23,069 bases of DNA from a virus. A model generated the notes under the pieces. It saw nothing but the letters and a program-made list of their open reading frames with translations, searched no databases and had not been told where the DNA came from. The stretch spans positions 1 through 23,069 of the IMG/VR virus record IMGVR_UViG_3300046782_000487, one strand, 5' to 3'. How positions within the stretch are numbered: the first letter of the stretch is position 1; each line of letters begins with the position of its first letter. This document shows positions 5,598-23,069 of this stretch, in pieces. A program made the position numbers and the translations under genes.

Positions 5598-6023
5598 TCA
5601 GCCTCCCTTGCCCCCCCCGTCGCCGCCGCCGCCGCCGCCCTCGTCCTCCTCGTCGTCCTCCTCCTCGGCGTCGTCCTCGTCCTCCTCGTCCTCGTGGCTC
5701 TCCTCGTGCTCGTCGGCGAGCTCGGTCAGCTCCTTCGACTTGTCCTCGGCGTCCTTGATGACCTCCTCGACCTTCGAGGTGAATGACTTGTCCTCCCCCT
5801 CGGTGTCGCGGGCCTCGAGCTCCTCGGCGCCCTCGTCGAGCGCCTTCGCCATCTCGCGCAGGACCTCGCAGCAGTCGCGGGGCTCGCCGCCCTCGTCCTC
5901 CTGCTCGCCGCCGCCGGCGCCGCCGTCATCCTGGCCGCCGCCGTCCGCGCCGCCGGCCTGGCCCTGTCCCTGCCGCTCGGCCCAGCCGACGACATCGTCG
6001 TTCGTGAAGCCACCGTTCGCCAT
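5598..6023 (-). CDS. Acidic, Gly-rich low-complexity protein with WAERQ N-terminus
   Basis: The product is 141 residues from the ATG at 6023; an in-frame ATG at 6035 would add four. The N-terminus MANGGFTNDDVVGWAERQ resembles that of the protein at 16729-17283 (LLRWAERQ), which supports the chosen start. A Gly/Gln/Asp-rich linker follows, then a helical charged segment (CCEVLREMAKALDEGAEEL), then an extremely acidic Glu/Asp tail ending in poly-Gly. Acidic proteins near scaffold genes can be assembly chaperones or DNA mimics; neither is proven. Composition is extreme, so similarity searches must be masked. Confidence 0.7.
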   Translation of the reverse strand: MANGGFTNDDVVGWAERQGQGQAGGADGGGQDDGGAGGGEQEDEGGEPRDCCEVLREMAKALDEGAEELEARDTEGEDKSFTSKVEEVIKDAEDKSKELTELADEHEESHEDEEDEDDAEEEDDEEDEGGGGGGDGGGKGG

Positions 6024-6055
6024 GGTCCCGAGCATGCGGGGGCCGGCGGCGCGCT

Positions 6056-6230: not shown

Positions 6231-7562
6231 CTAGATATTACGCCAGTCGCCGGGGAGCGGGACCGTCCGCCAGTTCTTCTGGTCCGACCGCGGGCCGTTC
6301 GACTCGACGAGGAGCGGGACGCCGAGCTCGATCGACATGTGCTCCGGGGTCCAGAGCCGCTCGGTCACGGGCTGGACGGTGCGGAGGAACTCGCCGACCT
6401 TCTGGCGCGCGGCGAGGTCGCGGACGCCGCGCTGGACGCGGAGCCGCGTCACCCGCCCGAACTCCGAGTCGTAGGCGACGCAGGTGCGGTCGCCGAAGTC
6501 CTGCTGGTCGACGCAGGTGACCGCGAGCGCGTCGACGCCGCCGTCGACGCCGATCGCGTAGCGGGTTAGGACGGCGTCGAACCAGCCGACGCGGAACGGT
6601 CCCTGCCAGCCACCGCCCTCGTTGTGCTCGCCCGCCCGCGGCCCGAGGCCGTTCTCGCTCGGGAATGGTCCCTGGCCGTGGCGGGTCGCGTAGGCCCTCG
6701 TCACGCCGACGGTCTTCAGGTCGCCGCCGACGCCGGCGTTGATGAACACCGCGCGCGCGTTGTCGCCCGTCGTCGTGCTCCACGTCGTGTGGGGGTGGAA
6801 GCCGTGCCACTCGTCCAGGAGGACGCCCTGCGCGCCCTCGAAGACGAGGTTGCCTCCGCGGAGCGTCTCGGCGATCTGGTCCCAGCTCGCGATCCGGATC
6901 CGGCGCCCGACGGTTGCCATGTCCTGGGCGGCGGTCTCCTCGAGCTCCTCGCTGTTCAGCATGGTCATCGCCAGCGCGGCCTCGGCGGTCACGACGCGCG
7001 CCTCGGCCAACAGCTTGGTCGCCTCGGCGGCGCAGTGCTGCCGCGTGAGCCGTAGCCGCCAGCGGATCTCGTGATGGTGCTGAAGGTCGCCGGCGTGGAG
7101 GAGGCAGTCCTTGTCAATCCCCGCGTCGAGAGACTCGCGAACCGCCTCGCCGACGCCGACGCCGCAGGTCCCATGTCGGTCCGCGCCGCGGACGATCTCT
7201 CGGACCTTCGACATCGCGCCGTGGAACGGCGTCGAGACCAGCGCCCGCTCGTCGACCGTCAGAAGCGTTAGCGGGTCTCGGAGGCCCAGGTAACAGAGGC
7301 TGTAGGCCTCCTGGATCATCGCCAGCGGGTCGACGACGACGTCCTTGCTCAGGACCGTCGCGGCGCCGGCGAGCGTCCCGGAGCCCCACTGCGAGAACGT
7401 GTGGTGCCGCCCCTCCGGCGTCACGACGTTGTGGGCGGCCTGGGCGCCGCCGTTGAACCTGACCACCGTCGACGCCCCGGTCTTGCGAACCAGAGCGTCG
7501 ACGATCGTCCCCTTCCCCTCGTCCCCGAACCCGAGCCCGATCACGATCCAGGATGGCTTCAT
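6231..7562 (-). CDS. purA: Adenylosuccinate synthetase-like protein (PurA family, phage type)
   Basis: The product is 443 residues. PurA joins IMP and aspartate with GTP to make adenylosuccinate; phage PurZ does the analogous step on dGMP for 2-aminoadenine DNA. Visible motifs: the N-terminal loop GLGFGDEGKG (Asp14), the His-bearing NGGAQAAHN (His44), STTTGDNA, the strand AYATRHGQGPFPSE, GWFDAVLTRYA, and a C-terminal SNGPRSDQKN resembling the base-binding loop. The catalytic Asp that PurZ replaces by Ser is retained. The aspartate-binding loop, TTGRxRR in bacterial PurA, is replaced by GGWQGPFR. With HTFSQWGSGTL and DRHGTCGVG this points to a divergent PurA-like branch. The start at 7562 follows CGTAATCC by eight bases. 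It is the last gene of the pseudokinase/vWA cassette. The substrate (IMP, dGMP or other) cannot be told here. Confidence 0.88.
   Translation of the reverse strand: MKPSWIVIGLGFGDEGKGTIVDALVRKTGASTVVRFNGGAQAAHNVVTPEGRHHTFSQWGSGTLAGAATVLSKDVVVDPLAMIQEAYSLCYLGLRDPLTLLTVDERALVSTPFHGAMSKVREIVRGADRHGTCGVGVGEAVRESLDAGIDKDCLLHAGDLQHHHEIRWRLRLTRQHCAAEATKLLAEARVVTAEAALAMTMLNSEELEETAAQDMATVGRRIRIASWDQIAETLRGGNLVFEGAQGVLLDEWHGFHPHTTWSTTTGDNARAVFINAGVGGDLKTVGVTRAYATRHGQGPFPSENGLGPRAGEHNEGGGWQGPFRVGWFDAVLTRYAIGVDGGVDALAVTCVDQQDFGDRTCVAYDSEFGRVTRLRVQRGVRDLAARQKVGEFLRTVQPVTERLWTPEHMSIELGVPLLVESNGPRSDQKNWRTVPLPGDWRNI
6234..6244 (-). promoter_or_regulatory. Start-associated element (GGCGTAATATC)
   Basis: This copy lies within the last codons of the PurA-like gene, out of frame with its stop. 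The next ATG (6218) is 16 bases away, so it is either looser in spacing or fortuitous. Confidence 0.4.
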
Positions 7563-7569
7563 GACCGGG

Positions 7570-7580
7570 AGGATTACGTC
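7570..7580 (-). promoter_or_regulatory. Start-associated element (GACGTAATCCT)
   Basis: Copy before the PurA-like gene, eight bases from TAATCC to the ATG at 7562. It lies just after the vWA stop. Confidence 0.55.
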
Positions 7581-8592
7581 AGACCCGCTTCGTCCCCCCC
7601 GCCGATGCGGCCGGCAGGTCGCCGGTGGCCGTCCCGGTCTTCGCGAGATCGCGGCCCGCGCTCTTGGCGTACGGCACGAGCGCGCCCTTCACGGCGGCGG
7701 CGGCGGTGTGGTCGAGCCCGGCCTTCGCCAGGTCGGCCGCGACGTCGTCGAGCCCGCGCCCCTCGCAGACCCCGATCGTCGAGCCGATCAGCTCGGCGAT
7801 GTGGTTCACGTCCCGGAGCATCAGGAACCGCTCCCCGAGGTACTCCTTCCAGAAGGCGAGGTGCTCGGCGTTGTCCGGGTACTGGCCCTGGTTCACGTAG
7901 ACGTGGAAGACCTCGAACTTCTCCTGCGCCGCCGCGAGGATCTCCTTCAGCGTCAGGTCCTTCTCCAGGTCCTCGCCCAGCCACCGCTTCGCGATCGCGC
8001 GCGGCAGGCGCTCGTAGGCCATCTCGTCGCCCATCGTGAACAGGTAGCCCTTCTTGCCGCGCTTCTCGAAGCAGTCCATCGCGACGTGCCGGCTGACCCA
8101 GTGGATCGCCATGTCGTACGACTCGCGCGCCTGGCCGCCGCCGTTCCCCTCCAGGTAGAGCTTCGTCAGCCAGTCGTCCATCTCGAGCCCGGACTCGAAC
8201 TGCCCGACCTGAAGCGGGGCCCGGTCCGAGTAGGCGTCCCCGATCGCCCCGAACATGATCTGGGGGTCCTCGATGTAGCTGTGCGCCGTCAGGAGCCGCA
8301 TCAGCCCGGGGAACTTGTCCTTGTCGAGGGCGAACTGCCTCGGGATGCCCCCCATCGATCCGGTCACGTCGAACAGGATCGCGAGGGCGTTCGAGCGCGG
8401 GTGGGCGTCGCTGTCGCGCGCCTCCCGGAGCTTGATGCTGAGCGGGTCCATCCCGGCCGCGACGACGGCCGCCGCCGACTTCGACGTGAACGATGCCGCC
8501 GCCGCCGCCGCCGGGCCGACGTCGTCGACCAGCTTGGATCGGGTCCCGTACAGGTGCCGTGCCGCCGAGTCGCTGTAGCTGCTGCCTCCCAT
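7579..8592 (-). CDS. von Willebrand factor A (vWA) domain protein
   Basis: The product is 337 residues. An Ala-rich N-terminal region (about 1-65) is followed by a vWA domain. The first strand and metal site are clear: LAILFDVTGSMGG, i.e. Asp75, Thr77 and Ser79 in a DxTxS form of the MIDAS motif. The domain continues through FGAIGDAYSDRAPLQVGQF, the Gly-rich NGGGQARESYDMA and YLFTMGDE. A helical Ala-rich tail closes the protein. vWA domains bind partners through a metal ion and often pair with ATPases or kinases. Here the gene directly follows a pseudokinase gene. GAAGGAG precedes the ATG at 8592. No signal peptide or membrane anchor, so probably cytoplasmic or in the virion. Confidence 0.85.
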   Translation of the reverse strand: MGGSSYSDSAARHLYGTRSKLVDDVGPAAAAAASFTSKSAAAVVAAGMDPLSIKLREARDSDAHPRSNALAILFDVTGSMGGIPRQFALDKDKFPGLMRLLTAHSYIEDPQIMFGAIGDAYSDRAPLQVGQFESGLEMDDWLTKLYLEGNGGGQARESYDMAIHWVSRHVAMDCFEKRGKKGYLFTMGDEMAYERLPRAIAKRWLGEDLEKDLTLKEILAAAQEKFEVFHVYVNQGQYPDNAEHLAFWKEYLGERFLMLRDVNHIAELIGSTIGVCEGRGLDDVAADLAKAGLDHTAAAAVKGALVPYAKSAGRDLAKTGTATGDLPAASAGGTKRV

Positions 8593-8631
8593 GGCGATTC
8601 TCCTTCCGGCCCGAGATTGGGCCTGGGCGGG

Positions 8632-8642
8632 AGTATTACGCC
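8632..8642 (-). promoter_or_regulatory. Start-associated element (GGCGTAATACT)
   Basis: Copy at the end of the pseudokinase gene, about 40 bases before the vWA start. The vWA gene also has its own GAAGGAG ribosome site, so this copy would give a transcript with a leader. Confidence 0.5.
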
Positions 8643-9691
8643 GGGAGCAGCGAGAAGGGCCGGAAGCTCGGCGCCCCGTAGAGGTCGCGGAGGACCGCGT
8701 CGAACCGCTTGTAAACGTCGAGCGCGCTGTCGTACCGGGCCCGCGGGTTCCGCAGGAGGCAGGCCGAGAGCAGGGCGTCGATCTTCCTCGGCAGCGCGCC
8801 GCGGTCGACCAGCGCGGCGGCGATCCGGGCGGCCATGTAGAGGTCCGTGGCGGGCGTCGCCGGCGCCTTCAGCTCGACCTCCGGCGCGTACCAGTCCGCC
8901 CGCGCGCTGACGATCGCCTTGATGCGCTCGCCCGCCGCGACCGAGCAGGACCAGCCGACGAGCTTCGCCCCGTGGTTGTCGGGTCGGATCAGGACGTGCT
9001 CGGGCAGGATCGCGCCGTGGACGAGCCCGTTGGAGTGGACCCACGAGAGGACCTCCAGCATCCGGCGCCACATCCAGGCCATGTCCCGGGGGTCGATCCC
9101 GCGCGGGCGGGCGAGGAGGACGTCGGCGATGGTGTTGGTCTTCGAGAAGAACCCGAAGACGTTCGCTCGCCGCAGCTTGCCGGCGACCTCGATCCGGGCG
9201 CTCTCGACGAGCTTCGGGAGGTAGCGCTGGAAGTTGACGGCCGCCTCGTCCTTCTCGGCCCAGAGCTTCTGGAGGTTCCGCCACTCCGCCGTGGCGAGGT
9301 CCTCGTCGCGCGGATCGCGGAGGAACTTCAGCACCGCGCGCCGGGGCTTGTCGTCCTCGTAGTCCGCGACGTAGACGTCGCACAGGTCGCCGGCCGCGAG
9401 CGGCTGGAGGTTCTTGTAGACGCCGCGCTTCGTCCGGACCTCGACCGAGACCGAGGGCGCCTTCTGGCCCCAGGTCCCCTGCTGGAACTTCCGGTCGGCC
9501 TCGTCCCGGAGCTCGAGGAGGCGCTTCATCCCCTCCGCCGCGCGCGGGCTCGGGTCGTGGTCGGGGTGAAGGATCCGGGCGAGGGACCGGAAGACGGCGG
9601 TCAGCTCGGCCTCGGTCTTGACGGGGCCGAACACGTCCTCCGCGCAGCGCGCGGCCATCACCTTCCCCGCGGCGAGCTCGGCGTCCGTCAT
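8636..9691 (-). CDS. J-domain / protein pseudokinase fusion
   Basis: The product is 351 residues. The N-terminal ~70 resemble a J-domain: helices around the signature His-Pro-Asp at 42-44 (FRSLARILHPDHDP), which in DnaJ proteins stimulates Hsp70. From about residue 95 a protein-kinase fold follows: a degenerate nucleotide loop, the ATP lysine (AVLKF, Lys122), a Glu in the next helix (Glu136), and the helical lobe with YAPE and DLYMAARIAAAL. The catalytic loop reads LVHGAILPEHVLI, so the HRD Asp is Ala227, and the DFG motif reads GWS (246-248). Both catalytic acids are missing, so phosphotransfer is unlikely and a binding or regulatory role is more plausible. The gene follows GGCGTAATAC by seven bases. 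A longer in-frame extension to 9835 overlaps the upstream gene and is rejected. Confidence 0.85.
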   Translation of the reverse strand: MTDAELAAGKVMAARCAEDVFGPVKTEAELTAVFRSLARILHPDHDPSPRAAEGMKRLLELRDEADRKFQQGTWGQKAPSVSVEVRTKRGVYKNLQPLAAGDLCDVYVADYEDDKPRRAVLKFLRDPRDEDLATAEWRNLQKLWAEKDEAAVNFQRYLPKLVESARIEVAGKLRRANVFGFFSKTNTIADVLLARPRGIDPRDMAWMWRRMLEVLSWVHSNGLVHGAILPEHVLIRPDNHGAKLVGWSCSVAAGERIKAIVSARADWYAPEVELKAPATPATDLYMAARIAAALVDRGALPRKIDALLSACLLRNPRARYDSALDVYKRFDAVLRDLYGAPSFRPFSLLPA

Positions 9692-9697
9692 GCGCCG

Positions 9698-9708
9698 AGT
9701 ATTACGCC
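9698..9708 (-). promoter_or_regulatory. Start-associated element (GGCGTAATACT)
   Basis: Copy before the J-domain/pseudokinase gene, seven bases from TAATAC to the ATG at 9691. It overlaps the stop of the Trp-rich protein gene. Confidence 0.6.
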
Positions 9709-10574
9709 CGGGCGTCCTTCGGCCTGTGGTCCTCCGTCGGAGTCCAGCCGCGCCCGCCGTTGCGCCCGCGGTCCCGGAGCTTGCTGGCGACGAACTTGCC
9801 GATGCCCTCCTCCAGCGTCTCGGCCGCGCAGCCAAACCCGTAGCTGGCGTCCTCGCCGCAGTCCCAGGAGTTCTCGCCCTTGCCGGGGAAGGGGACCGGG
9901 TCGCGCTTCATGTCGAGGTCCACGCACACCCAGCGCCGCGCGAAGGGCCACCGGGGCCGCTTGTGGACCCGCTCGAGGACCCGGCCGGTCCCAGCGTAGG
10001 CCCGCTCCGGCATGGGGACGAGGATCGACTTCTCGGCCTCGATCACACGCTCCGAATACTTCGCCTTGCCGAGGAAGGTGTCGAGCGGGTGCCAGGACCC
10101 GTGCCGCCACTTCGGCGTCTTCGAGCTCCACGACATCGGGTCCGTCCAGAGCGCCCACCAGATCCCCCAGTCGTGGATCGAGACGTCGACCTCGCGGTCC
10201 GAGTAGCACTTCGAGATCCGGCCCGACCACCCGTCCCGGTCCTTGTCCGGCAGGAGCTTGCGGGCGAGCCTCGCGAACATCCCGCCCTGCAGCGTCAGGT
10301 AGAACGAGAAGACCCATGGCACCGCGATCGCGAGCTGGACGCCCACGCCGTCGCCCTGCTGCGCCTTGAAGCTCAGGTGGGCGGCGCCGCGCCAGAAGAA
10401 CGCCCACTCCCAGTTGACCGAGATGCCGGGCCGGTACTTGATGCGCTTCTCCTCCTCGCGCGTCCTCGGCTCGGGGCTGTGGAACAGTGTCAGCCACGCG
10501 CGCCCGTGGCGGGCGCCGCCGCCGCGACGAGGGCGCCGCTTGCTGTCGTTCAGGTTCTGCCAGTGGAAACGCAT
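9702..10574 (-). CDS. Unknown Trp-rich protein heading the pseudokinase/vWA cassette
   Basis: The product is 290 residues and not recognised. It begins MRFHWQNLNDSKRRPRRGG (basic) and is rich in Trp and aromatics in a beta-type pattern (ISVNWEWAFFWRGAAHLSF, VSIHDWGIWWALWTDPMSW). The stretch VGVQLAIAVPWVFSFYLTL is hydrophobic but more like buried beta strands than a membrane helix. The C-terminus is charged. The ATG at 10574 follows GGCGTAATAT by seven bases, and the gene ends ten bases before the J-domain gene. Its consistent joining with the next three genes suggests a common process. Confidence 0.75.
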   Translation of the reverse strand: MRFHWQNLNDSKRRPRRGGGARHGRAWLTLFHSPEPRTREEEKRIKYRPGISVNWEWAFFWRGAAHLSFKAQQGDGVGVQLAIAVPWVFSFYLTLQGGMFARLARKLLPDKDRDGWSGRISKCYSDREVDVSIHDWGIWWALWTDPMSWSSKTPKWRHGSWHPLDTFLGKAKYSERVIEAEKSILVPMPERAYAGTGRVLERVHKRPRWPFARRWVCVDLDMKRDPVPFPGKGENSWDCGEDASYGFGCAAETLEEGIGKFVASKLRDRGRNGGRGWTPTEDHRPKDARA

Positions 10575-10580
10575 GCGCCT

Positions 10581-10591
10581 GATATTACGCC
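10581..10591 (-). promoter_or_regulatory. Start-associated element (GGCGTAATATC)
   Basis: Copy before the Trp-rich protein gene, seven bases from TAATAT to the ATG at 10574. It overlaps the MuF stop. Confidence 0.6.
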
Positions 10592-11508
10592 GGGAGCCCG
10601 GCCGTGCTCGGCTGGACCGGCCCCGGCTCGGCGAGCCCGGCGGTCCCCCAGGCCGGCAGCCACGGGATGACGCACTCGCGATCGTTCGGCCTGTTCGGCG
10701 GCTGCATGTACCTGACGACCTTCCCCGTCGGGACGCCGTGGTCGTTCTTGACGACCCAGACGAAGGGCTGGTCGACCGGGACCGTCTGGCCGTTCAGCGC
10801 CTCGCTGTCCTTCCCGGTCCGGTCGTCGAAGGTCGCGACGAGCCGCTTCTGCATCTTCGGCACGGCGGGCCGGAGCTCCTCCATCGACCGCTGGTTGCTC
10901 ACGCCGTAGGTCCAGGACATCTCGGTCCGGACGATCCGCTCCGCCCGCCAGCGCTGCTTCTCGAACAGCCCGGTCGACCCGACCACCCGGTCGACCGCCT
11001 CGTCGACGCCCTCGCCCTGGACGATCGATCTCGCGAGCCCCTCCCGGATCGAGCCGAGCGCCTGGGGCCCGTAGCGCCGCGCCGAGCTCCGGTAGCGGTC
11101 GAGCAGCGTGGGCGCGATCCCGGGGTAGACGTTCCGGACGACGGCGGCCTGAGCGGCCTGGACGACGGGCGTCATCCGGCCGTAGCGCCCCTCCAGCGTG
11201 CCGACCATGTTCGTCAGGTGGCGCGGGGCGAGGTTCCCGGCGACGCGCCCGGTGGCCTGCATGTGGTCGACGAGCCCGGTCTCCAGGCCCCGGATCGCGT
11301 CGGCGACCTGGGCGAGGACGAGCCGGAGGTGCTGGGCCTGGAAGGTCTGGCCCTTGCCGGCGCGCGCGAGGCGGCGGAGCTTGTCCTCGAGATCGACCCG
11401 GGAGTCGGCGTACAGCTTCTGCATCCGGCCGACGCCCCGGACCTCGATCACCCCGAACAGTTGGCGGCGGTGGAGGTCGACGAGCTCGCGGATCAGGGAG
11501 GCGGCCAC
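10585..11508 (-). CDS. Head morphogenesis protein, SPP1 gp7 / Mu F type
   Basis: The product is 307 residues. The C-terminal half carries the family pattern: ERIVRTEMSWTYGVSNQRS, then KRLVATFDDRTGKDSEALNG, then the PP-containing end YMQPPNRPNDRECVIPW. The N-terminal ~150 residues are helical. In SPP1 and Mu this protein binds the portal, enters the head in few copies and affects DNA ejection and head assembly. In most phages the gene sits right after the portal; here about 7 kb separate them. The start is a GTG at 11508. A degenerate form of the start element (GCGTAGTAG) lies upstream. Confidence 0.85.
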   Translation of the reverse strand: MAASLIRELVDLHRRQLFGVIEVRGVGRMQKLYADSRVDLEDKLRRLARAGKGQTFQAQHLRLVLAQVADAIRGLETGLVDHMQATGRVAGNLAPRHLTNMVGTLEGRYGRMTPVVQAAQAAVVRNVYPGIAPTLLDRYRSSARRYGPQALGSIREGLARSIVQGEGVDEAVDRVVGSTGLFEKQRWRAERIVRTEMSWTYGVSNQRSMEELRPAVPKMQKRLVATFDDRTGKDSEALNGQTVPVDQPFVWVVKNDHGVPTGKVVRYMQPPNRPNDRECVIPWLPAWGTAGLAEPGPVQPSTAGLPA

Positions 11509-12017: not shown

Positions 12018-12021
12018 TGGA

Positions 12022-12092
12022 GCTGGTGGCGGGAGTCGAACCCGCTCCTCCGCCTTACCAAGGCGGCGGTCATCCGATTGACCTTCACCAGC
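12022..12092 (-). tRNA. tRNA-Thr(GGT)
   Basis: Acceptor GCTGGTG/CACCAGC, anticodon loop TTGGTAA on a CCGCC/GGCGG stem, T-loop TTCGACT. Reads ACC. Last tRNA of the array; no encoded CCA. Confidence 0.9.
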
Positions 12093-12094
12093 GT

Positions 12095-12164
12095 GACCCG
12101 GGGCGGATTCGAACCGCCAGACGCTCGCTTAGGAGGCGTGCGCTCGGTCCACTCGAACCGGGTC
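12095..12164 (-). tRNA. tRNA-Arg(CCT)
   Basis: Acceptor GACCCGG/CCGGGTC, anticodon loop CTCCTAA, T-arm GGCGG TTCGAAT CCGCC. Reads AGG. One A-A mismatch in the anticodon stem. Lies between the HNH gene and tRNA-Thr. Confidence 0.85.
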
Positions 12165-12175
12165 CCCCCCCCGCC

Positions 12176-12697
12176 CTACCCCTCCAGGACGTCCGACCAG
12201 TAGCCCCGCCACTCGTCGGGGATCCGGGTCGCGTCCATCTTGACCATGATCGCCGGCAGGATGTGGGGCTTCGTCGGCGACCTGAGCAGCCGCATCCCCG
12301 CCTCCGCCGGCGTCCTGTCCGCCTTCTCGGCGTTGCACGAGACGCAGCAGGTGACGATGTTCTCCCAGCGCGTGACGCCGCCCCTCGACCGCGGCTGGAC
12401 GTGGTCGAACGTCAGGTCCTCGGTCGGGAACCGCCGCGCGCAGTACTGGCAGACGAACCCGTCGCGCGCGTAGATGTTCAGGCGCGAGAACTTCACGCGG
12501 ATCCGGTCGCGCTTGAAGCGACGGAGGATCCGGACAACGCTCGGCATCGGGTAGTCCTGGCCCACGCCCCTGATGGTCCGGTCCCGGCTGTACTCGACGA
12601 CCTCGGCCTTGCCGACGACGACGTCGGACACGGCGCGGTGCCAGTGCTCGACGCGAAGGCGGCGGTAGTCAACGTCCAGGTACAGCACGGCTTCCAT
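12176..12697 (-). CDS. HNH endonuclease inside the tRNA array
   Basis: The product is 173 residues. An N-terminal region (MEAVLYLDVDYRRLRVEHWH) precedes an HNH domain: CQYC, then LTFDHVQPRSRGG, then WENIVTCCVSCNAEKADRTP. It has two Cys pairs for zinc and the Asp-His catalytic core. The layout is common in phage-borne HNH proteins that nick or cut DNA. It separates tRNA-Arg(CCT) from tRNA-Leu(CAG). Homing by such enzymes could have helped move tRNA genes. AAAGGAGG six bases before the ATG at 12697 fixes the start; a longer reading frame to 12844 would run through tRNA-Leu and is rejected. Confidence 0.88.
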   Translation of the reverse strand: MEAVLYLDVDYRRLRVEHWHRAVSDVVVGKAEVVEYSRDRTIRGVGQDYPMPSVVRILRRFKRDRIRVKFSRLNIYARDGFVCQYCARRFPTEDLTFDHVQPRSRGGVTRWENIVTCCVSCNAEKADRTPAEAGMRLLRSPTKPHILPAIMVKMDATRIPDEWRGYWSDVLEG

Positions 12698-12729
12698 CGG
12701 ACCCTCCTTTCTGGATTCTACCTGCGGGT

Positions 12730-12812
12730 GCGAGAGAGAGGAGTCGAACCTCCACGCCCGTTGCGGGCACTGCGGTCTGAACGCAGCGCGGCTGCCATTA
12801 CGCCACTCTCGC
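12730..12812 (-). tRNA. tRNA-Leu(CAG)
   Basis: Acceptor GCGAGAG/CTCTCGC, anticodon loop TTCAGAC, long variable arm (class II), T-loop TTCGACT. Reads CTG. Confidence 0.92.
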
Positions 12813-12818
12813 GATCGT

Positions 12819-12900
12819 GCTCGGAGGGGGAGTCGAACCCCCACGGCCTTTCGGCCACCGGCCTCTCAAACCGGCGTGACTACCATTCCACCACCCGAGC
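12819..12900 (-). tRNA. tRNA-Leu(GAG)
   Basis: Acceptor GCTCGGG/TCCGAGC, anticodon loop TTGAGAG, long variable arm with a GGCC..GGCC stem. Reads CTC. Confidence 0.9.
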
Positions 12901-12904
12901 TCGT

Positions 12905-12976
12905 AGGGGCTTCCGGAATCGAACCGGAGCTTCACCGGGTTTGAGCCGGCGCCGTCTCCACTTGCGGCACGCCCCC
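12905..12976 (-). tRNA. tRNA-Leu(CAA) with short variable loop
   Basis: Anticodon loop CTCAAAC on GCCGG/CCGGT; reads TTG. The D-arm (CAAGTGGAGACGGC) is Leu-like, but the variable region is only about five bases, whereas bacterial Leu tRNAs normally have a long arm. The acceptor has a G-U and a G-A pair. Confidence 0.75.
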
Positions 12977-12978
12977 GT

Positions 12979-13047
12979 ACCGGGGCAGGAGTCGAACCTG
13001 CGTCGACCGCTTATAAAGCGGCTGCTCTCCCGTTGAGCTATCCCGGC
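12979..13047 (-). tRNA. tRNA-Ile(TAT)
   Basis: Anticodon loop TTTATAA on GCCGC/GCGGT, T-arm GCAGG TTCGACT CCTGC. Reads the rare codon ATA directly. The 3' acceptor strand appears one base short. Confidence 0.82.
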
Positions 13048-13054
13048 TCGTCGC

Positions 13055-13125
13055 GCCCCCGAGGGGAATCGAACCCCCCTCGCGCCGTAGACAGCGGCGC
13101 AGCCTCACCAGATGCTTACGGGAGC
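13055..13125 (-). tRNA. tRNA-Asp(GTC)
   Basis: Acceptor GCTCCCG/CGGGGGC, anticodon loop CTGTCTA, T-loop TTCGATT. Reads GAC. Confidence 0.9.
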
Positions 13126-13131
13126 AGGAGT

Positions 13132-13203
13132 GTCCTCGCCCGGACTCGAACCGGGACCTCGGGTTTCGGAGACCCGTGTGGTTTCCCGTTCCACCACGAG
13201 GAC
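13132..13203 (-). tRNA. tRNA-Arg(CCG)
   Basis: Acceptor GTCCTCG/CGAGGAC, anticodon loop CTCCGAA on CGGGT/ACCCG, T-loop TTCGAGT. Reads CGG. Confidence 0.92.
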
Positions 13204-13208
13204 GTCGA

Positions 13209-13280
13209 GCGCCCGGGCGGATTCGAACCGCCAGGTCCCGGCTTAGAAGGCCGGGCGCCGATCCAGCTCGGCACGAGCGC
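13209..13280 (-). tRNA. tRNA-Arg(TCT)
   Basis: Acceptor GCGCTCG/CGGGCGC, anticodon loop CTTCTAA on CCGGC/GCCGG, T-loop TTCGAAT. Reads AGA, a codon expected to be rare in such a GC-rich genome. Confidence 0.9.
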
Positions 13281-13286
13281 GTTGCA

Positions 13287-13366
13287 CCAGGGGCAGGAGT
13301 CGAACCTGCAGTTGCCTTGCGGCGGGTGGTTAACAGCCACCTGGGTTGCCGTTCCCCTCACCCTGG
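13287..13366 (-). tRNA. tRNA-Asn(GTT) with extra arm
   Basis: Anticodon loop CTGTTAA on GGTGG/CCACC; reads AAC. The variable region is about 15 bases and folds as GCC GCAA GGC, giving a class II shape unusual for Asn. T-loop TTCGACT. Confidence 0.78.
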
Positions 13367-13372
13367 TATGGA

Positions 13373-13439
13373 GCTCCTCGTCGGAATCGGACCGACCGGG
13401 CCGAGCTACAAGTCCCGCCCCGAGCCCAGCTCGAGGAGC
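13373..13439 (-). tRNA. Degenerate tRNA, probably tRNA-Thr(TGT)
   Basis: Acceptor GCTCCTC/GAGGAGC and T-arm GTCGG TCCGATT CCGAC are good. The central part is only loosely foldable. The loop CTTGTAG would give anticodon TGT (ACA); a shifted reading TTGTAGC would give GTA (Tyr). Thr is favoured because a normal tRNA-Tyr exists in the array. At 67 bases it is short. Confidence 0.6.
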
Positions 13440-13450
13440 GCGTCCGTTGT

Positions 13451-13522
13451 TGCGGGGGTCGGATTTGAACCGACGTGCTCTGGCTTATGAGGCCAGCGAG
13501 GTAACCCCTCCTCAACCACCGC
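13451..13522 (-). tRNA. tRNA-Met(CAT)
   Basis: Anticodon loop CTCATAA on CTGGC/GCCAG, T-arm GTCGG TTCAAAT CCGAC. CAT could be elongator, initiator or lysidine-modified Ile2; the sequence alone does not decide. The acceptor contains a mismatch. Confidence 0.82.
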
Positions 13523-13540
13523 GATGCTGATGCTACCAGA

Positions 13541-13611
13541 GCTCCCGCCGAGAGTCGAACTCGGTTCTCCGCTTTACGAAAGCGGCGCGTCGCCACCTAC
13601 GCTTCAGGAGC
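13541..13611 (-). tRNA. tRNA-Thr(CGT)
   Basis: Acceptor GCTCCTG/CGGGAGC, anticodon loop TTCGTAA on CCGCT/AGCGG, T-loop TTCGACT. Reads ACG. Confidence 0.9.
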
Positions 13612-13619
13612 ACGATCTA

Positions 13620-13719
13620 GCTCGCGGTTCCCCGGTCGCGCGCCCCGGAAGTCGCCGACGTCACCCACCGTCGGCGGACCGTGTACCCCGGGGCGGAGAT
13701 CGCAGCCGGCTCCGCGAGC
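13620..13719 (-). other. Long three-tier hairpin in a tRNA slot
   Basis: The ends pair over eight bases (13620-13627 with 13712-13719). A middle stem GCCCCGG/CCGGGGC and an inner GCCGACG/CGTCGGC lie within. It occupies one tRNA-sized slot but has no T-loop consensus or anticodon arm. It may be a decayed tRNA or a separate structured RNA. Confidence 0.5.
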
Positions 13720-13731
13720 CTTCCGTCTGGA

Positions 13732-13801
13732 GCATCGTGCGAGAGTCGAACTCGCCTCTCCGGTTTGGAAGACCGGGTCCTAGCCGCTCGGACAACGATG
13801 C
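13732..13801 (-). tRNA. tRNA-Gly(TCC)
   Basis: Acceptor GCATCGT/ACGATGC, anticodon loop CTTCCAA on CCGGT/ACCGG, T-arm GCGAG TTCGACT CTCGC. Reads GGA. Confidence 0.92.
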
Positions 13802-13806
13802 CTAGA

Positions 13807-13877
13807 GCGCCCAGCGAGATTTGAACTCGCCCTTCTGACTTGGCAAGCCAGCGTGCAGCCGTGAACACCTTGGGCGC
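13807..13877 (-). tRNA. tRNA-Gly(GCC)
   Basis: Acceptor GCGCCCA/TGGGCGC, anticodon loop TTGCCAA, T-arm GCGAG TTCAAAT CTCGC. Reads GGC. Confidence 0.92.
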
Positions 13878-13882
13878 GCGGA

Positions 13883-13952
13883 GGACGAGCCGGGAATCGA
13901 ACCCGGGATGCCGGTGTTGCAGGCCGGCGCCTTTCCACTTGGCCACTCGTCC
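13883..13952 (-). tRNA. tRNA-Cys(GCA)
   Basis: Acceptor GGACGAG/CTCGTCC, anticodon loop CTGCAAC, T-arm CCGGG TTCGATT CCCGG. Reads TGC; U33 is in place only for this reading. Confidence 0.87.
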
Positions 13953-13958
13953 GTCGGA

Positions 13959-14042
13959 GGAGAGGGAGCGAGTCGAACGCTCGGGGCCTTGGCCCGGCGG
14001 TTTAGCAAACCGCTCTGGAAAACCGACATCCAGGTCCTCTCC
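13959..14042 (-). tRNA. tRNA-Ser(GCT)
   Basis: Acceptor GGAGAGG/CCTCTCC, anticodon loop TTGCTAA on GCGGT/ACCGC, long variable arm GGGCC..GGCCC. Reads AGC. Confidence 0.93.
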
Positions 14043-14048
14043 GTTCGT

Positions 14049-14119
14049 GCGCGCCGCAGGAATCGAACCTGCTCTCTCCGCCGTGTCGAGGCGACGTCTT
14101 TCCGGTCGACCAGGCGCGC
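14049..14119 (-). tRNA. tRNA-Val(GAC) with C33
   Basis: Acceptor GCGCGCC/GGCGCGC, anticodon stem TCGCC/GGCGG, loop TCGACAC, T-loop TTCGATT. Reads GTC. Position 33 is C instead of the near-universal U. Confidence 0.82.
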
Positions 14120-14121
14120 GT

Positions 14122-14189
14122 AGCTGCGGACGGAGTCGGACCGTCTCGGCCGAGCTTATGAAGCTCGCCTGCCTCCGAGGCTCGCAGCC
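14122..14189 (-). tRNA. tRNA-Met(CAT), second copy
   Basis: Acceptor GGCTGCG/CGCAGCT, anticodon loop TTCATAA on CGAGC/GCTCG. The T-loop is TCCGACT with C at the usual T55. May be Met, initiator or Ile2 (CAT). Confidence 0.82.
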
Positions 14190-14191
14190 GT

Positions 14192-14259
14192 ACCCCCACC
14201 CGGATTCGAACCGGGGACCCTTGGTTCGTAGCCATGGGCGCCATCCGATAGCTGGGGGC
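14192..14259 (-). tRNA. tRNA-Arg(ACG)
   Basis: Acceptor GCCCCCA/TGGGGGT, anticodon loop CTACGAA, T-loop TTCGAAT. Reads CGT; with A34 deaminated by a host TadA it would also read CGC and CGA. Confidence 0.85.
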
Positions 14260-14266
14260 TCGTCGC

Positions 14267-14339
14267 GACCGCTGCGGGATTCGAACCCGCGTTTGCCGGG
14301 TGAAAACCGGCGGGCCTGGGCCAACTAGCCGAAGCGGTC
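14267..14339 (-). tRNA. tRNA-Glu(TTC)
   Basis: Acceptor GACCGCT/AGCGGTC, anticodon loop TTTTCAC on GCCGG/CCGGC, T-loop TTCGAAT. Reads GAA. Confidence 0.93.
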
Positions 14340-14345
14340 AATCGT

Positions 14346-14416
14346 GACCCCGCCGGGAATCGAACCCGGTCCTGCGCCGTGAGAGGGCGCCAACCTAGCC
14401 GGTAGTCCACGGGGCC
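14346..14416 (-). tRNA. tRNA-Glu(CTC)
   Basis: Acceptor GGCCCCG/CGGGGTC, anticodon loop CTCTCAC on GCGCC/GGCGC, T-loop TTCGATT. Reads GAG. Confidence 0.93.
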
Positions 14417-14419
14417 GAA

Positions 14420-14498
14420 GAGGGTGGAAGAATCGAACTCCTGACCCGAAGGTCACGCCGGTTTTCGAGACCAGTTAGGCGCCATGCCACGCACCCTC
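14420..14498 (-). tRNA. tRNA-Ser(CGA)
   Basis: Acceptor GAGGGTG/CACCCTC, anticodon loop CTCGAAA, variable arm TGACC TTC GGGTCA, T-loop TTCGATT. Reads TCG. Confidence 0.9.
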
Positions 14499-14504
14499 TG
14501 CGGC

Positions 14505-14570
14505 GGGCGACCGAGGAATCGAACCTCGCTGGCTGGTTTTGGAGACCGGCCTGATCCCGGATCGTTGCCC
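14505..14570 (-). tRNA. tRNA-Trp(CCA), short D-arm
   Basis: Acceptor GGGCAAC/GTCGCCC with one mismatch, anticodon loop CTCCAAA, T-arm CGAGG TTCGATT CCTCG. The D-arm is compressed to GATC CGG GATC. Reads TGG. 66 bases. Confidence 0.78.
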
Positions 14571-14583
14571 AATGGCCTCCGGG

Positions 14584-14621
14584 GCGCGGCGTAGACGGCC
14601 TGCAGGACGTCAGCGCCGCGC
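14584..14621 (-). other. Hairpin between tRNA-Ala and tRNA-Trp
   Basis: A perfect eight-base inverted repeat (14584-14591 with 14614-14621), 22-base loop, in the only sizeable spacer of this part of the array. No U-run follows on either strand. Confidence 0.4.
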
Positions 14622-14632
14622 ACCCTTCGGGT

Positions 14633-14700
14633 GGAGAGCTCGGGAGTTGAACCCGACCCGCGTTGCTTGCAAGGCATCGCTCCGCCCCGGCGGGCTCCCC
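14633..14700 (-). tRNA. tRNA-Ala(TGC)
   Basis: Acceptor GGGGAGC/GCTCTCC, anticodon loop CTTGCAA, T-loop TTCAACT, short D-arm. Reads GCA; a cmo5U34-class tRNA and the only Ala tRNA in the array. Confidence 0.82.
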
Positions 14701-14709
14701 ATGTTTCGT

Positions 14710-14780
14710 CCGGGCGAGGTGAATCGAACACCCCTGATCCTGCTCCCAAGGCAGGCGGCCAGCCACTGACCCACGCCCGG
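14710..14780 (-). tRNA. tRNA-Pro(TGG)
   Basis: Acceptor CCGGGCG/CGCCCGG, anticodon loop CTTGGGA on CCTGC/GCAGG with G37, T-loop TTCGATT. Reads CCA; cmo5U34-class. Confidence 0.9.
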
Positions 14781-14789
14781 AAAGGTTGG

Positions 14790-14860
14790 GTGGACGACGG
14801 GAATCGAACCCGCCTGGGACTCGGTCACAGCGAGCCGGTCAACCACTGACCCACGTCCAC
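14790..14860 (-). tRNA. tRNA-His(GTG)
   Basis: Acceptor GTGGACG/CGTCCAC, anticodon loop CTGTGAC, T-loop TTCGATT. Reads CAC. Confidence 0.9.
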
Positions 14861-14863
14861 AGT

Positions 14864-14933
14864 TCCCCGAGCTCGACTCGAACGAGCGTCTGCGGTTTCA
14901 AAGACCGCCGTCCTGCCGCTGGACGATCGGGGA
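14864..14933 (-). tRNA. tRNA-Gln(TTG)
   Basis: Acceptor TCCCCGA/TCGGGGA, anticodon loop CTTTGAA on GCGGT/ACCGC, T-loop TTCGAGT. Reads CAA. Confidence 0.93.
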
Positions 14934-14944
14934 TCGTTGCTGGT

Positions 14945-15015
14945 TCCCTCGGCACGATTCGAACGTGCGTTCACGGCTTCAGAGACCGCTGTCCTGCCAG
15001 TTAGACGACAAGGGA
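14945..15015 (-). tRNA. tRNA-Gln(CTG)
   Basis: Acceptor TCCCTTG/CGAGGGA, anticodon loop CTCTGAA, T-loop TTCGAAT. Reads CAG. Similar to its neighbour Gln(TTG), suggesting local duplication. Confidence 0.92.
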
Positions 15016-15017
15016 GT

Positions 15018-15088
15018 AGAGGCGGATGGGGTCGAACCATCGTCGGCCGCTTATCGAGCGGCTGCGCTGACCGTTGTGCTACGCCTCC
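15018..15088 (-). tRNA. tRNA-Ile(GAT) with C33
   Basis: Acceptor GGAGGCG/CGCCTCT, anticodon stem GCCGC/GCGGC, loop TCGATAA, T-loop TTCGACC. Reads ATC. C33 replaces U33. Confidence 0.85.
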
Positions 15089-15097
15089 GTGCTTCGT

Positions 15098-15169
15098 ACG
15101 AGGTGCGGGAGTCGAACCCGCCTGACCGGCGTGTAGGGCCGGAGCCTAGCCGATCGGCTTCAACCTCGC
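15098..15169 (-). tRNA. tRNA-Val(TAC) with C33
   Basis: Acceptor GCGAGGT/ACCTCGT, anticodon stem CCGGC/GCCGG, loop CCTACAC, T-loop TTCGACT. Reads GTA; cmo5U34-class. C33 replaces U33. Confidence 0.85.
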
Positions 15170-15172
15170 GGT

Positions 15173-15244
15173 CGGGGTGGGCGGTCTCGAACCGCCGACC
15201 TCCTGGTCCCGAACCAGGCGCGCTTCCAGCTGCGCCACACCCCG
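15173..15244 (-). tRNA. tRNA-Pro(CGG)
   Basis: Acceptor CGGGGTG/CACCCCG, anticodon loop TTCGGGA on CCTGG/CCAGG, T-loop TTCGAGA. Reads CCG. Confidence 0.93.
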
Positions 15245-15254
15245 ATGCTTTCGT

Positions 15255-15326
15255 GCCCCAGCGCGGGATCGAACCGCGTTCTCCGGTTTTTCAGACCGGC
15301 GCCATCACCAGATCGGCTTCCGGGGC
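15255..15326 (-). tRNA. tRNA-Phe(GAA)
   Basis: Acceptor GCCCCGG/CTGGGGC, anticodon loop CTGAAAA on CCGGT/ACCGG, T-loop TTCGATC. Reads TTC. Confidence 0.92.
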
Positions 15327-15332
15327 AATGTC

Positions 15333-15406
15333 GGCGGGGTGGCTTCCCCGCCGCCTTCATCGTCGACTATTTGGTTGTCAGGGAGCTCGGCGGAGGCGAT
15401 CCGCCG
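15333..15406 (-). other. tRNA-free gap with two hairpins
   Basis: The gap between tRNA-Lys(CTT) and tRNA-Phe holds two short perfect hairpins: GGCGGGG/CCCCGCC at 15333-15352 and CGGCGG/CCGCCG at 15388-15406. No T-loop, no ORF and no U-run are seen. It may be remnants of a lost tRNA or processing signals. Confidence 0.35.
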
Positions 15407-15410
15407 TCGT

Positions 15411-15481
15411 GGGTCCACTCGGAATCGAACCGAGTTCCTCCGGTTAAGAGCCGGGAGCTTCGCCATCAAAGCTTTGGACCC
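15411..15481 (-). tRNA. tRNA-Lys(CTT)
   Basis: Acceptor GGGTCCA/TGGACCC, anticodon loop CTCTTAA, T-loop TTCGATT. Reads AAG. Confidence 0.92.
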
Positions 15482-15497
15482 AAGTGTTTCTCGTCGT

Positions 15498-15568
15498 GAC
15501 CTCTCCGGGAATCGAGCCCGGTTCGCCTGTTTAAAAGACAGGTGCTCATCCGCTAAAGCTTAGAGGTC
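15498..15568 (-). tRNA. tRNA-Lys(TTT)
   Basis: Acceptor GACCTCT/AGAGGTC, anticodon loop CTTTTAA on CCTGT/ACAGG. The T-loop is CTCGATT with C at position 54. Reads AAA. Confidence 0.9.
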
Positions 15569-15570
15569 GT

Positions 15571-15651
15571 GCACCGTCGAGGAATCGAACCTCGCGCGCC
15601 CAATGGCGAACGGTTTACAGCCGTCCTGGAGCCCCAGCTCTCGCCCGGTGC
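15571..15651 (-). tRNA. tRNA-Tyr(GTA)
   Basis: Acceptor GCACCGG/ACGGTGC, anticodon loop CTGTAAA, long variable arm CGCC ATT GGGCG, T-loop TTCGATT. Reads TAC. First tRNA of the array in transcription order, about ten bases after the terminator U-run. Confidence 0.92.
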
Positions 15652-22362: not shown

Positions 22363-23069
22363 TCAGCGGAGCGCGATCCAGCCGCAAAAGTTGAGGTGCC
22401 TCCAGAAGCACTCGACCTCGCGGAAGCCCTCCCGGAGGAGCATCGCGACGTTCGCCCCCTCCGTCTGCGGGACGAGCACCCCCTCGAGCGCGAGCCGCTT
22501 CCGGTCGATCTCCTCCTGCGTGTAGCCGTTCCCCCGCTTGAAGTCGTAGTAGTCGGCGACCAGGAGGTCGTCCGCCCAGCTCGACCCGCCGAGGATCTTC
22601 TCGACCACGAGCATCACGCCGCCGTCGCGGAGCGTCTCGGCCGCCCGCCTGACGACGCGCGCGCGGTGCTCGATCGGGACGAACTGCAGCGTCAGGACCG
22701 ACAGGACGACAGACGTCGCGCTCGCCGGTACCGCCGGGAAGGAGCTCCGGAGGTCGACCTCCTCGATGCGAACGTTCGGCAGGTGCGCGAACCGCTCGCG
22801 CGCCGCCGCCACCATCGGCGGGGAGATCTCGGCCCCGACGTACTCGACGCTGGCGGGCGGGAAGCCGACCTTGTGGGCCGCCATGACCTCCGCGAGCGCG
22901 CCGCCCCGCGAGCAGCCGAGGTCGACGACGATCGATCCCGGGCGGACGTGGCGGGCGGCGATCCCGGCGCAGAGCTGGCGCATCACCGCGTAGCCGGGGA
23001 TCGACCGCCAGAGCATGTCGTCGAAGACCCGGGTCACCTCGCCGTCGAAGGCCCACTTGGAGGGGGCGT
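22363..23069 (-). CDS. cmoA: CmoA-like carboxy-SAM synthase, 5' end outside window
   Basis: The visible 234 codons align along their whole length with E. coli CmoA (247 residues, from memory). CmoA converts SAM and prephenate into carboxy-SAM, the donor used by CmoB to make cmo5U34 in tRNA. Seen here: WAFDGEVTRVFDDM (WTFDERVAEVFPDM in E. coli), RSIPGY, the SAM motif VVDLGCSRGG, LTLQFVPIEHRARV, VVEKILGG, DFKRGNGYTQEEIDRKRLA and a C-terminal FRHLNF-like strand. The Arg in RKRLALEGV corresponds to the one I recall as Arg199, which contacts the carboxylate. A GTG at 23037 is in frame but is not the start, because CmoA similarity continues to the window edge; about 13 residues are missing. The phage also carries cmo5U-class tRNAs. 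Confidence 0.9.
   Translation of the reverse strand, partial: APSKWAFDGEVTRVFDDMLWRSIPGYAVMRQLCAGIAARHVRPGSIVVDLGCSRGGALAEVMAAHKVGFPPASVEYVGAEISPPMVAAARERFAHLPNVRIEEVDLRSSFPAVPASATSVVLSVLTLQFVPIEHRARVVRRAAETLRDGGVMLVVEKILGGSSWADDLLVADYYDFKRGNGYTQEEIDRKRLALEGVLVPQTEGANVAMLLREGFREVECFWRHLNFCGWIALR

Follow-up and report, generated by a model that had tools for sequence, protein, structure and literature searches.

The window described here, the whole of a 23,069-nucleotide stretch of DNA (IMG/VR virus record IMGVR_UViG_3300046782_000487, positions 1 to 23,069), is a viral fragment of about 70% G+C which carries three consecutive genes, encoding a J-domain pseudokinase, a protein of vWA fold and an adenylosuccinate-synthetase-like (PurA-like) protein. 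These constitute a recurrent three-gene operon of bacteria and large tailed phages. All the genes under discussion lie on the minus strand. In the order of transcription a Mu F-type head gene (10585-11508) comes first, followed by a gene for a Trp-rich protein (9702-10574), the pseudokinase gene (8636..9691, 351 amino acids), the vWA gene (7579..8592, 337 amino acids) and the purA-like gene (6231..7562, 443 amino acids). A first-pass annotation, made from the sequence, had joined the Trp-rich protein, the pseudokinase and the vWA protein in a distinct chaperone-linked or host-takeover module. The J-domain/pseudokinase/vWA set is indeed recurrent, but that grouping does not hold, the true third member being the PurA-like gene.

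Recurrence and co-inheritance of the three genes

The hits of a profile search with the vWA protein numbered at least 472 among viral contigs and at least 535 among bacterial loci, and on each side the analysis took the 80 best; the viral loci were dereplicated to 74, and the cellular sample consists of 80 bacterial loci found by the vWA alone. The kinase gene is present in 62 and the purA-like gene in 70 of the 74 viral loci, against 19 at most for any other family. In the cellular loci, which come from at least five phyla (Actinomycetota, Chloroflexota, Bacteroidota, Planctomycetota and Myxococcota), the kinase is found in 66, the PurA-like protein in 74 and both in 61. The commonest order is kinase, vWA, PurA-like (54/77 viral loci and 55/80 cellular loci), mixed strands never occur and the median intergenic gaps in cells are 12 and -4 bases. 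Odd gene orders in some cellular loci are probably caused by over-long open reading frames in DNA of high G+C content, so they were not taken as rearrangements or fusions. The independent gene calls of RefSeq (Rhodococcus, Tsukamurella, Agrobacterium plasmids) give the same trio, the first two genes being named hypothetical protein. Furthermore, about 190 mycobacteriophage (Bixzunavirus) records show the kinase gene, next the vWA gene and then, immediately or past one small gene, the purA-like gene, the Mycobacterium record counts for the three genes being 189, 188 and 189.

The distance matrices of the three proteins are strongly correlated (r 0.93-0.95 over 104 loci and 0.90-0.94 over 43 viral loci, the best of 300 permutations being 0.17), so the trio travels as a unit, although shared genome descent contributes to this value. 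A quick tree of the PurA-like proteins, which has several long branches, mixes viruses and cells with 8-10 virus-cell changes, while its Actinomycetota branch largely tracks genus lines. The set occurs on chromosomes, plasmids and phages, and it is sporadic in hosts: the vWA was found in 14/198 genomes sampled from the Actinoplanes class. In Rhizobium and Vibrio phages and in a faecal phage the vWA gene adjoins the purA-like gene and a Met-rich protein upstream replaces the kinase. Such proteins with a Met-rich C-terminus are encoded upstream of vWA-PurA at L008:5376-6167, L010:5246-5965 and L012:4495-5103, and they have relatives in Roseobacter and Acinetobacter phages.

The annotation had also placed the cassette between phage head genes. 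A phage-specific module of the head genes had to be abandoned, since the set follows the terminase and polynucleotide kinase genes in Bixzunavirus and is common on bacterial chromosomes and plasmids, which also argues against a purely host-takeover role. The Trp-rich protein is as rich in Trp as had been described (18 of 290 residues), but it does not belong to the set and was rejected: when all the retrieved loci, viral and cellular, were searched with phmmer, matches came only from the lineage of the window and from Bacillus phage BM15, where the relative sits in another gene context, and no other triad locus has a match. The annotation had made its case depend on co-occurrence in other genomes and on predicted J and kinase folds; the co-occurrence and both folds were found.

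In the open-access literature, to which the search was confined (subscription papers lying outside its scope), no description of the trio was found. An adenylosuccinate synthase homologue has been noted in phage Bxz1 and is absent in Myrna (PMC2771037).

The J-domain pseudokinase

The product of 8636-9691 carries the motifs read by the annotation, that is, HPD at residues 42-44 (9560..9568), HGA at residues 225-227 (9011..9019), where an active kinase has HRD, and GWS at residues 246-248 (8948..8956), where an active kinase has DFG. As was also claimed, the ATP-binding Lys (the VAIK-type residue 122, in AVLK), the APE motif (269-271) and the kinase helical lobe remain, and TDLY is found at 282-285. 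An AlphaFold2 model (mean predicted local distance difference test score, pLDDT, 92.8) has the bilobal fold of a protein kinase, the best matches being PknA and PknB (Z 25.4 over 229-230 residues), and superposes on PknA with a root-mean-square deviation of 2.1 over 229 residues. The alignments given to AlphaFold2 contained rows from the related-locus search only, those of annotated records being left out.

The J-like domain comprises residues 1-72 (9476..9691), as judged from the profile match of relatives and from the helices of the model (3-13, 27-41 and 49-70), with HPD in the loop joining the last two. Taken singly, the window protein matches PF00226 weakly (E 0.006-0.06, under the Pfam cut-off), but 34/44 members match it singly, an N-terminal profile of these 44 relatives matches solved J domains with E 1.4e-12, and a relative in a 485-kb phage has a textbook DnaJ domain. 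The assignment, which the annotation had made from one sequence, is thus weak for the window protein by itself and firm for the family.

Because the alignment of 44 relatives was selected for HPD, the frequencies of this motif were taken from the other viral and cellular sets, in which it is kept in 59/66 viral proteins and in 63/66 proteins of the cellular set including the window. A catalytic Asp of HRD type is present in only 2/66 distinct viral proteins and in 0/65 cellular ones; in the cellular set with the window added, HGA stands in its place in 54/66, and most proteins have DWC for DFG (49/66). In a viral group of about 294 amino acids the VAIK Lys and the DFG Asp (SFY here) are both gone, and the operon is still kept. 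The loss of the catalytic Asp together with the retention of HPD suggests that what has been retained is the J domain and a scaffold, not the usual phosphotransfer. Genes for R2K ATP-grasp and HAD_SAK (RNA-repair type) proteins flank many triads of the 294-amino-acid group (19/74 and 16/74 loci, respectively; for example, L028:4526-5278 and L021:3759-4364).

The vWA protein

The vWA protein has the intact DxTxS metal site that had been reported, a DVTGS motif at residues 75-79 (8356..8370) of the metal-ion-dependent adhesion site (MIDAS) type. Its AlphaFold2 model (pLDDT 87.4) is a vWA domain and matches integrin beta-I with Z 15.8 over 194 residues. The MIDAS-like DxTGS and residues D119, E148, G151, G152, E157 and D189 are invariant in 46 relatives. 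None of the Pfam vWA models matches the 7579-8592 product, its relatives have no Pfam family in common, and no relative was found in the PDB searched by sequence.

In some Bixzunavirus genomes (Cane17 and Alice) the vWA gene contains an intein-like in-frame insert (GYC ... SNC, with LAGVYDGEG) beside a conserved GDE motif; the insert-bearing genes lie at L002:6074-7891 and L003:6110-7894, and those of Tonenili and Dietrick are without the insert. The vWA gene is named HNH endonuclease in some Bixzunavirus records. In addition, a Gemmataceae locus (L101:2437-6933) has the vWA region within an open frame of 1498 codons, which is possibly a fusion or an over-long frame, and no J-kinase or PurA-like neighbours were found there.

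The PurA-like enzyme

The PurA-like protein matches PF00709 with E 9e-59 and scores below every NCBIfam cut-off for PurA. Its residues were surveyed in 54 viral and 73 cellular PurA-like sequences in the numbering of E. coli PurA, and their roles were assigned from what is generally known of that enzyme. Asp13, Lys16 of the P-loop and His41 are kept in 127/127 sequences, and Gln224 and Thr239 in all rows having the column. Changes are found at a further set of positions. Gln stands for Asn38 in nearly all sequences, Thr129 has mostly given way to Cys or Val, and Arg143 lacks conservation; His takes the place of Val273 and Gln that of Thr301, position 300 (Thr in PurA) has mostly Trp or Phe, Arg303 has been deleted, and Arg305 has mostly become Phe and also Leu. 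In the aspartate loop of the window protein, T300 is W, T301 is Q, R303 is deleted and R305 is F. From these residues the activation chemistry should remain, and the contacts with aspartate, phosphate and ribose should differ from those of PurA.

The viral enzymes PurZ and PurZ0, by comparison, all carry Ser in place of Asp13 (PMC12884076). An identity with PurZ, and hence with Z-DNA synthesis, was rejected on this residue; the score against the NCBIfam PurZ model, 36 of 300 bits, is also far under the cut-off. Consequently, the label "2-aminooxy adenylosuccinate synthetase" is misleading for this family. With one or the other of the names 2-aminooxy adenylosuccinate synthetase and PurA-like, some 190 phage records may lead a reader to expect Z-DNA, although the residue by which PurZ is defined is absent.

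Relatives with an active kinase

Four viral loci (L016/L179, L017/L181, L180 and L182) have HGD together with DFG or DYG. A record-wide search found the purA-like gene in none of these four records, and the slot after the vWA is occupied in 4/4 loci by a pyruvate-kinase-like gene (mutual identity 43-81%). The J-kinase and the vWA protein therefore behave as a pair whose metabolic-enzyme partner can be exchanged. A PP2C phosphatase (PF13672) is encoded in both of the large active-kinase records (485 and 392 kb) and in 0/35 pseudokinase phage records (one-sided p 0.0015), a contrast which is close to a single event, the branch being probably one lineage; the remaining two active-kinase records, of 64 and 124 kb, may be fragments. 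On a simple reading, a set of active kinase, vWA and phosphatase resembling TerY-P may be the ancestor or the sister of the phosphatase-free pseudokinase set linked to purA-like. The system would offer a case of a kinase that loses catalysis while its chaperone-recruiting motif stays, with a change of the partner enzyme.

NrtR-type neighbours

NrtR is a sensor of ADP-ribose (PMC9503650). In 48/80 bacterial loci (Actinomycetota) the kinase gene is preceded by a gene for a NUDIX-winged-helix protein of this type, and the two often share a few bases. In Nocardiaceae and Tsukamurella a NUDIX gene is found just downstream of the purA-like gene, and in Agrobacterium vitis the NrtR-type gene is divergent from the set. 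PF00293 and PF21906 match over their cut-offs in L140, L186 and the phage locus L043 and weakly in L185, and in L187 the helix was not found. An NrtR-type gene also stands near the set in three phage loci, and NAMPT or NADAR genes near some.

Possible function and alternative explanations

A tentative explanation, possible rather than probable, is that the J-pseudokinase and the vWA protein form an Hsp70-recruiting adaptor pair which controls a divergent purine enzyme. The J domain would recruit the host Hsp70 (DnaK) through HPD, the pseudokinase domain would serve as a protein-binding scaffold, and the vWA protein would grip an acidic residue of its partner through Mg2+ at the MIDAS, so that the adaptor would fold, hold or activate the PurA-like protein. 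The latter would activate the purine 6-oxygen in a GTP-dependent manner, as PurA does, and might attach an amine other than aspartate or act on a nucleotide other than inosine monophosphate. In many bacteria an NrtR-type sensor of ADP-ribose would control the operon, which would then probably respond when the pool of NAD/ADP-ribose or of purine nucleotides shifts, and phages may carry the set to act on the same nucleotide pool during infection. A wider and more doubtful proposal is that of a new cellular machine of bacteria and giant phages, in which the J-pseudokinase and the MIDAS-bearing vWA would be an Hsp70-linked switch on an exchangeable metabolic-enzyme paralogue (adenylosuccinate-synthetase-like or, where the kinase is active, pyruvate-kinase-like), yielding a non-standard purine upon ADP-ribose/NAD stress.

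Several points weigh against the adaptor explanation. The recruitment of Hsp70, a physical complex, an altered substrate and a role in pool sensing or stress are inferred beyond co-occurrence, and the putative change of substrate is read from the loop residues only. About one quarter of the cellular loci were not seen with all three genes, some of them being cut by contig ends, and since the Rhizobium and Vibrio phages keep vWA-PurA without the J-kinase, the J-pseudokinase is not indispensable. One of the active-kinase relatives (L182:7024-8001) retains the J-like N-terminus but not its HPD, opposite to what is seen among the pseudokinases. Finally, a whole-record search found a NadV-type gene (PF04095) in 7/35 triad phage records, which does not exceed the background in medium and jumbo phages, put at 22-33% in PMC9503650, so the link to NAD rests on the bacterial NrtR-type neighbours.

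The main rival to the adaptor pair is a conflict system, for defence or superinfection exclusion, in which the vWA protein and the J-pseudokinase would detect an invader, or a signal of ADP-ribose, and in response switch a PurA-like effector that depletes or alters a purine nucleotide. We consider it rather unlikely, as also the version for phages, which would carry the set to keep out competitors or to weaken the defences of the host. The sporadic distribution in hosts, the spread over chromosomes, plasmids and phages and the repeated virus-cell changes speak for it; NrtR-type and vWA genes are, moreover, found in predicted ADP-ribosylation conflict systems (PMC9503650), and TerY-P-type triads of kinase and vWA act against phages (PMC10889362). 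However, PADLOC models match none of the vWA, PurA-like and Trp-rich proteins and match the kinase only by general kinase models, no toxin or nuclease partner recurs among the loci, and the genus-wise Actinomycetota branch does not favour it. Another use of the purine enzyme, improbable in our view, would be to make a precursor of modified DNA, as PurZ and PurZ0 do for 2-aminoadenine, the other two proteins being accessory. The labels in PHROGs and in public phage records point that way and the loss of R303 could relax the recognition of ribose, but the invariant Asp13 and the low PurZ score speak against it, as does the frequency of the set on bacterial chromosomes, where a genome-wide substitution is not expected.

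The remaining explanations concern the kinase-fold protein and the place of the genes. The HGA protein might be an enzyme of another chemistry, such as AMPylation or glutamylation, as in some pseudokinase folds; in most cellular members both the VAIK Lys and the DFG Asp are still in place, and the ability to bind nucleotide and metal may have survived with them, but the viral group of about 294 amino acids keeps the operon without either residue, so no conserved catalysis is visible and this possibility appears slim. The module as first annotated would be a phage-specific cassette for host takeover or assembly, part of the head genes and with the Trp-rich protein as a member. In its favour, the four genes are packed, with gaps of 10-43 bases, between capsid genes on one side and the Mu F-type head gene on the other. 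This module is nevertheless very improbable, because the Trp-rich protein is missing from the other triad loci and the set is frequent in bacteria and differently placed in other phages.

With the three genes read together, three database labels, a hypothetical protein, a kinase and a mis-labelled aminoadenine enzyme, become one testable system, which is present in laboratory-tractable hosts (Rhodococcus, Streptomyces relatives and the phages of Mycobacterium smegmatis).

Other features of the window

Downstream of the purA-like gene, 5598-6035 encodes a protein of 145 amino acids which is very acidic, rich in Gly and in Glu/Asp, and without a significant family match. An array of 33 tRNA genes at 12018-15651 covers nearly all amino acids; tRNA-Ser was not reported there by ARAGORN, though one could lie in one of several gaps of 80-115 bases. 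The same fragment encodes at 22363-23037 a methyltransferase matching phrog_4752 (labelled tRNA methyltransferase; E 3e-59).

Comparison with known systems

In PHROGs the trio is matched by families 3043 (labelled "kinase"; E 9e-40 for the window protein), 2971 (function not known; E 1e-54) and 1211 (labelled "2-aminooxy adenylosuccinate synthetase"; E 3e-73), but these are listed apart and given no joint function. The PurA-like protein shares with PurA the PF00709 fold, Asp13, Lys16, His41 and Gln224, and differs from it in having WQG-xFR instead of the TTGRRRR aspartate loop and TRHG instead of TRVG. The NrtR-ARG-vWA systems, predicted to act against ADP-ribosylation (PMC9503650), likewise have a NUDIX-winged-helix regulator adjoining a vWA gene and occur in actinobacteria and planctomycetes. 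They contain, however, an ADP-ribosylglycohydrolase and phosphatases, and adenylosuccinate synthetase, DnaJ and PurA are unmentioned in their description (PMC9503650); an ADP-ribosylglycohydrolase of that kind was not seen to recur in the loci analysed here.

The TerY-P triad consists of the TerY vWA, a Ser/Thr kinase with a C-terminal zinc ribbon or OB fold, and a PP2C phosphatase. The present set resembles it in that a vWA gene adjoins a gene of kinase fold, a vWA with a MIDAS not implying membership of the TerY family, and in that the intact-kinase relatives in two giant-phage records encode PP2C elsewhere in the record. Membership of TerY-P was rejected, and the distinction drawn by the annotation stands: the kinase is dead (64/66 viral and all 65 cellular proteins), a J domain is found at the N-terminus and not a ribbon or OB fold at the C-terminus, PP2C is lacking from the pseudokinase records, and the third gene is purA-like. 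Because the active-kinase relatives tie the trio to the vWA-kinase systems, it is rated here as a variant of these and not as a categorically new system.

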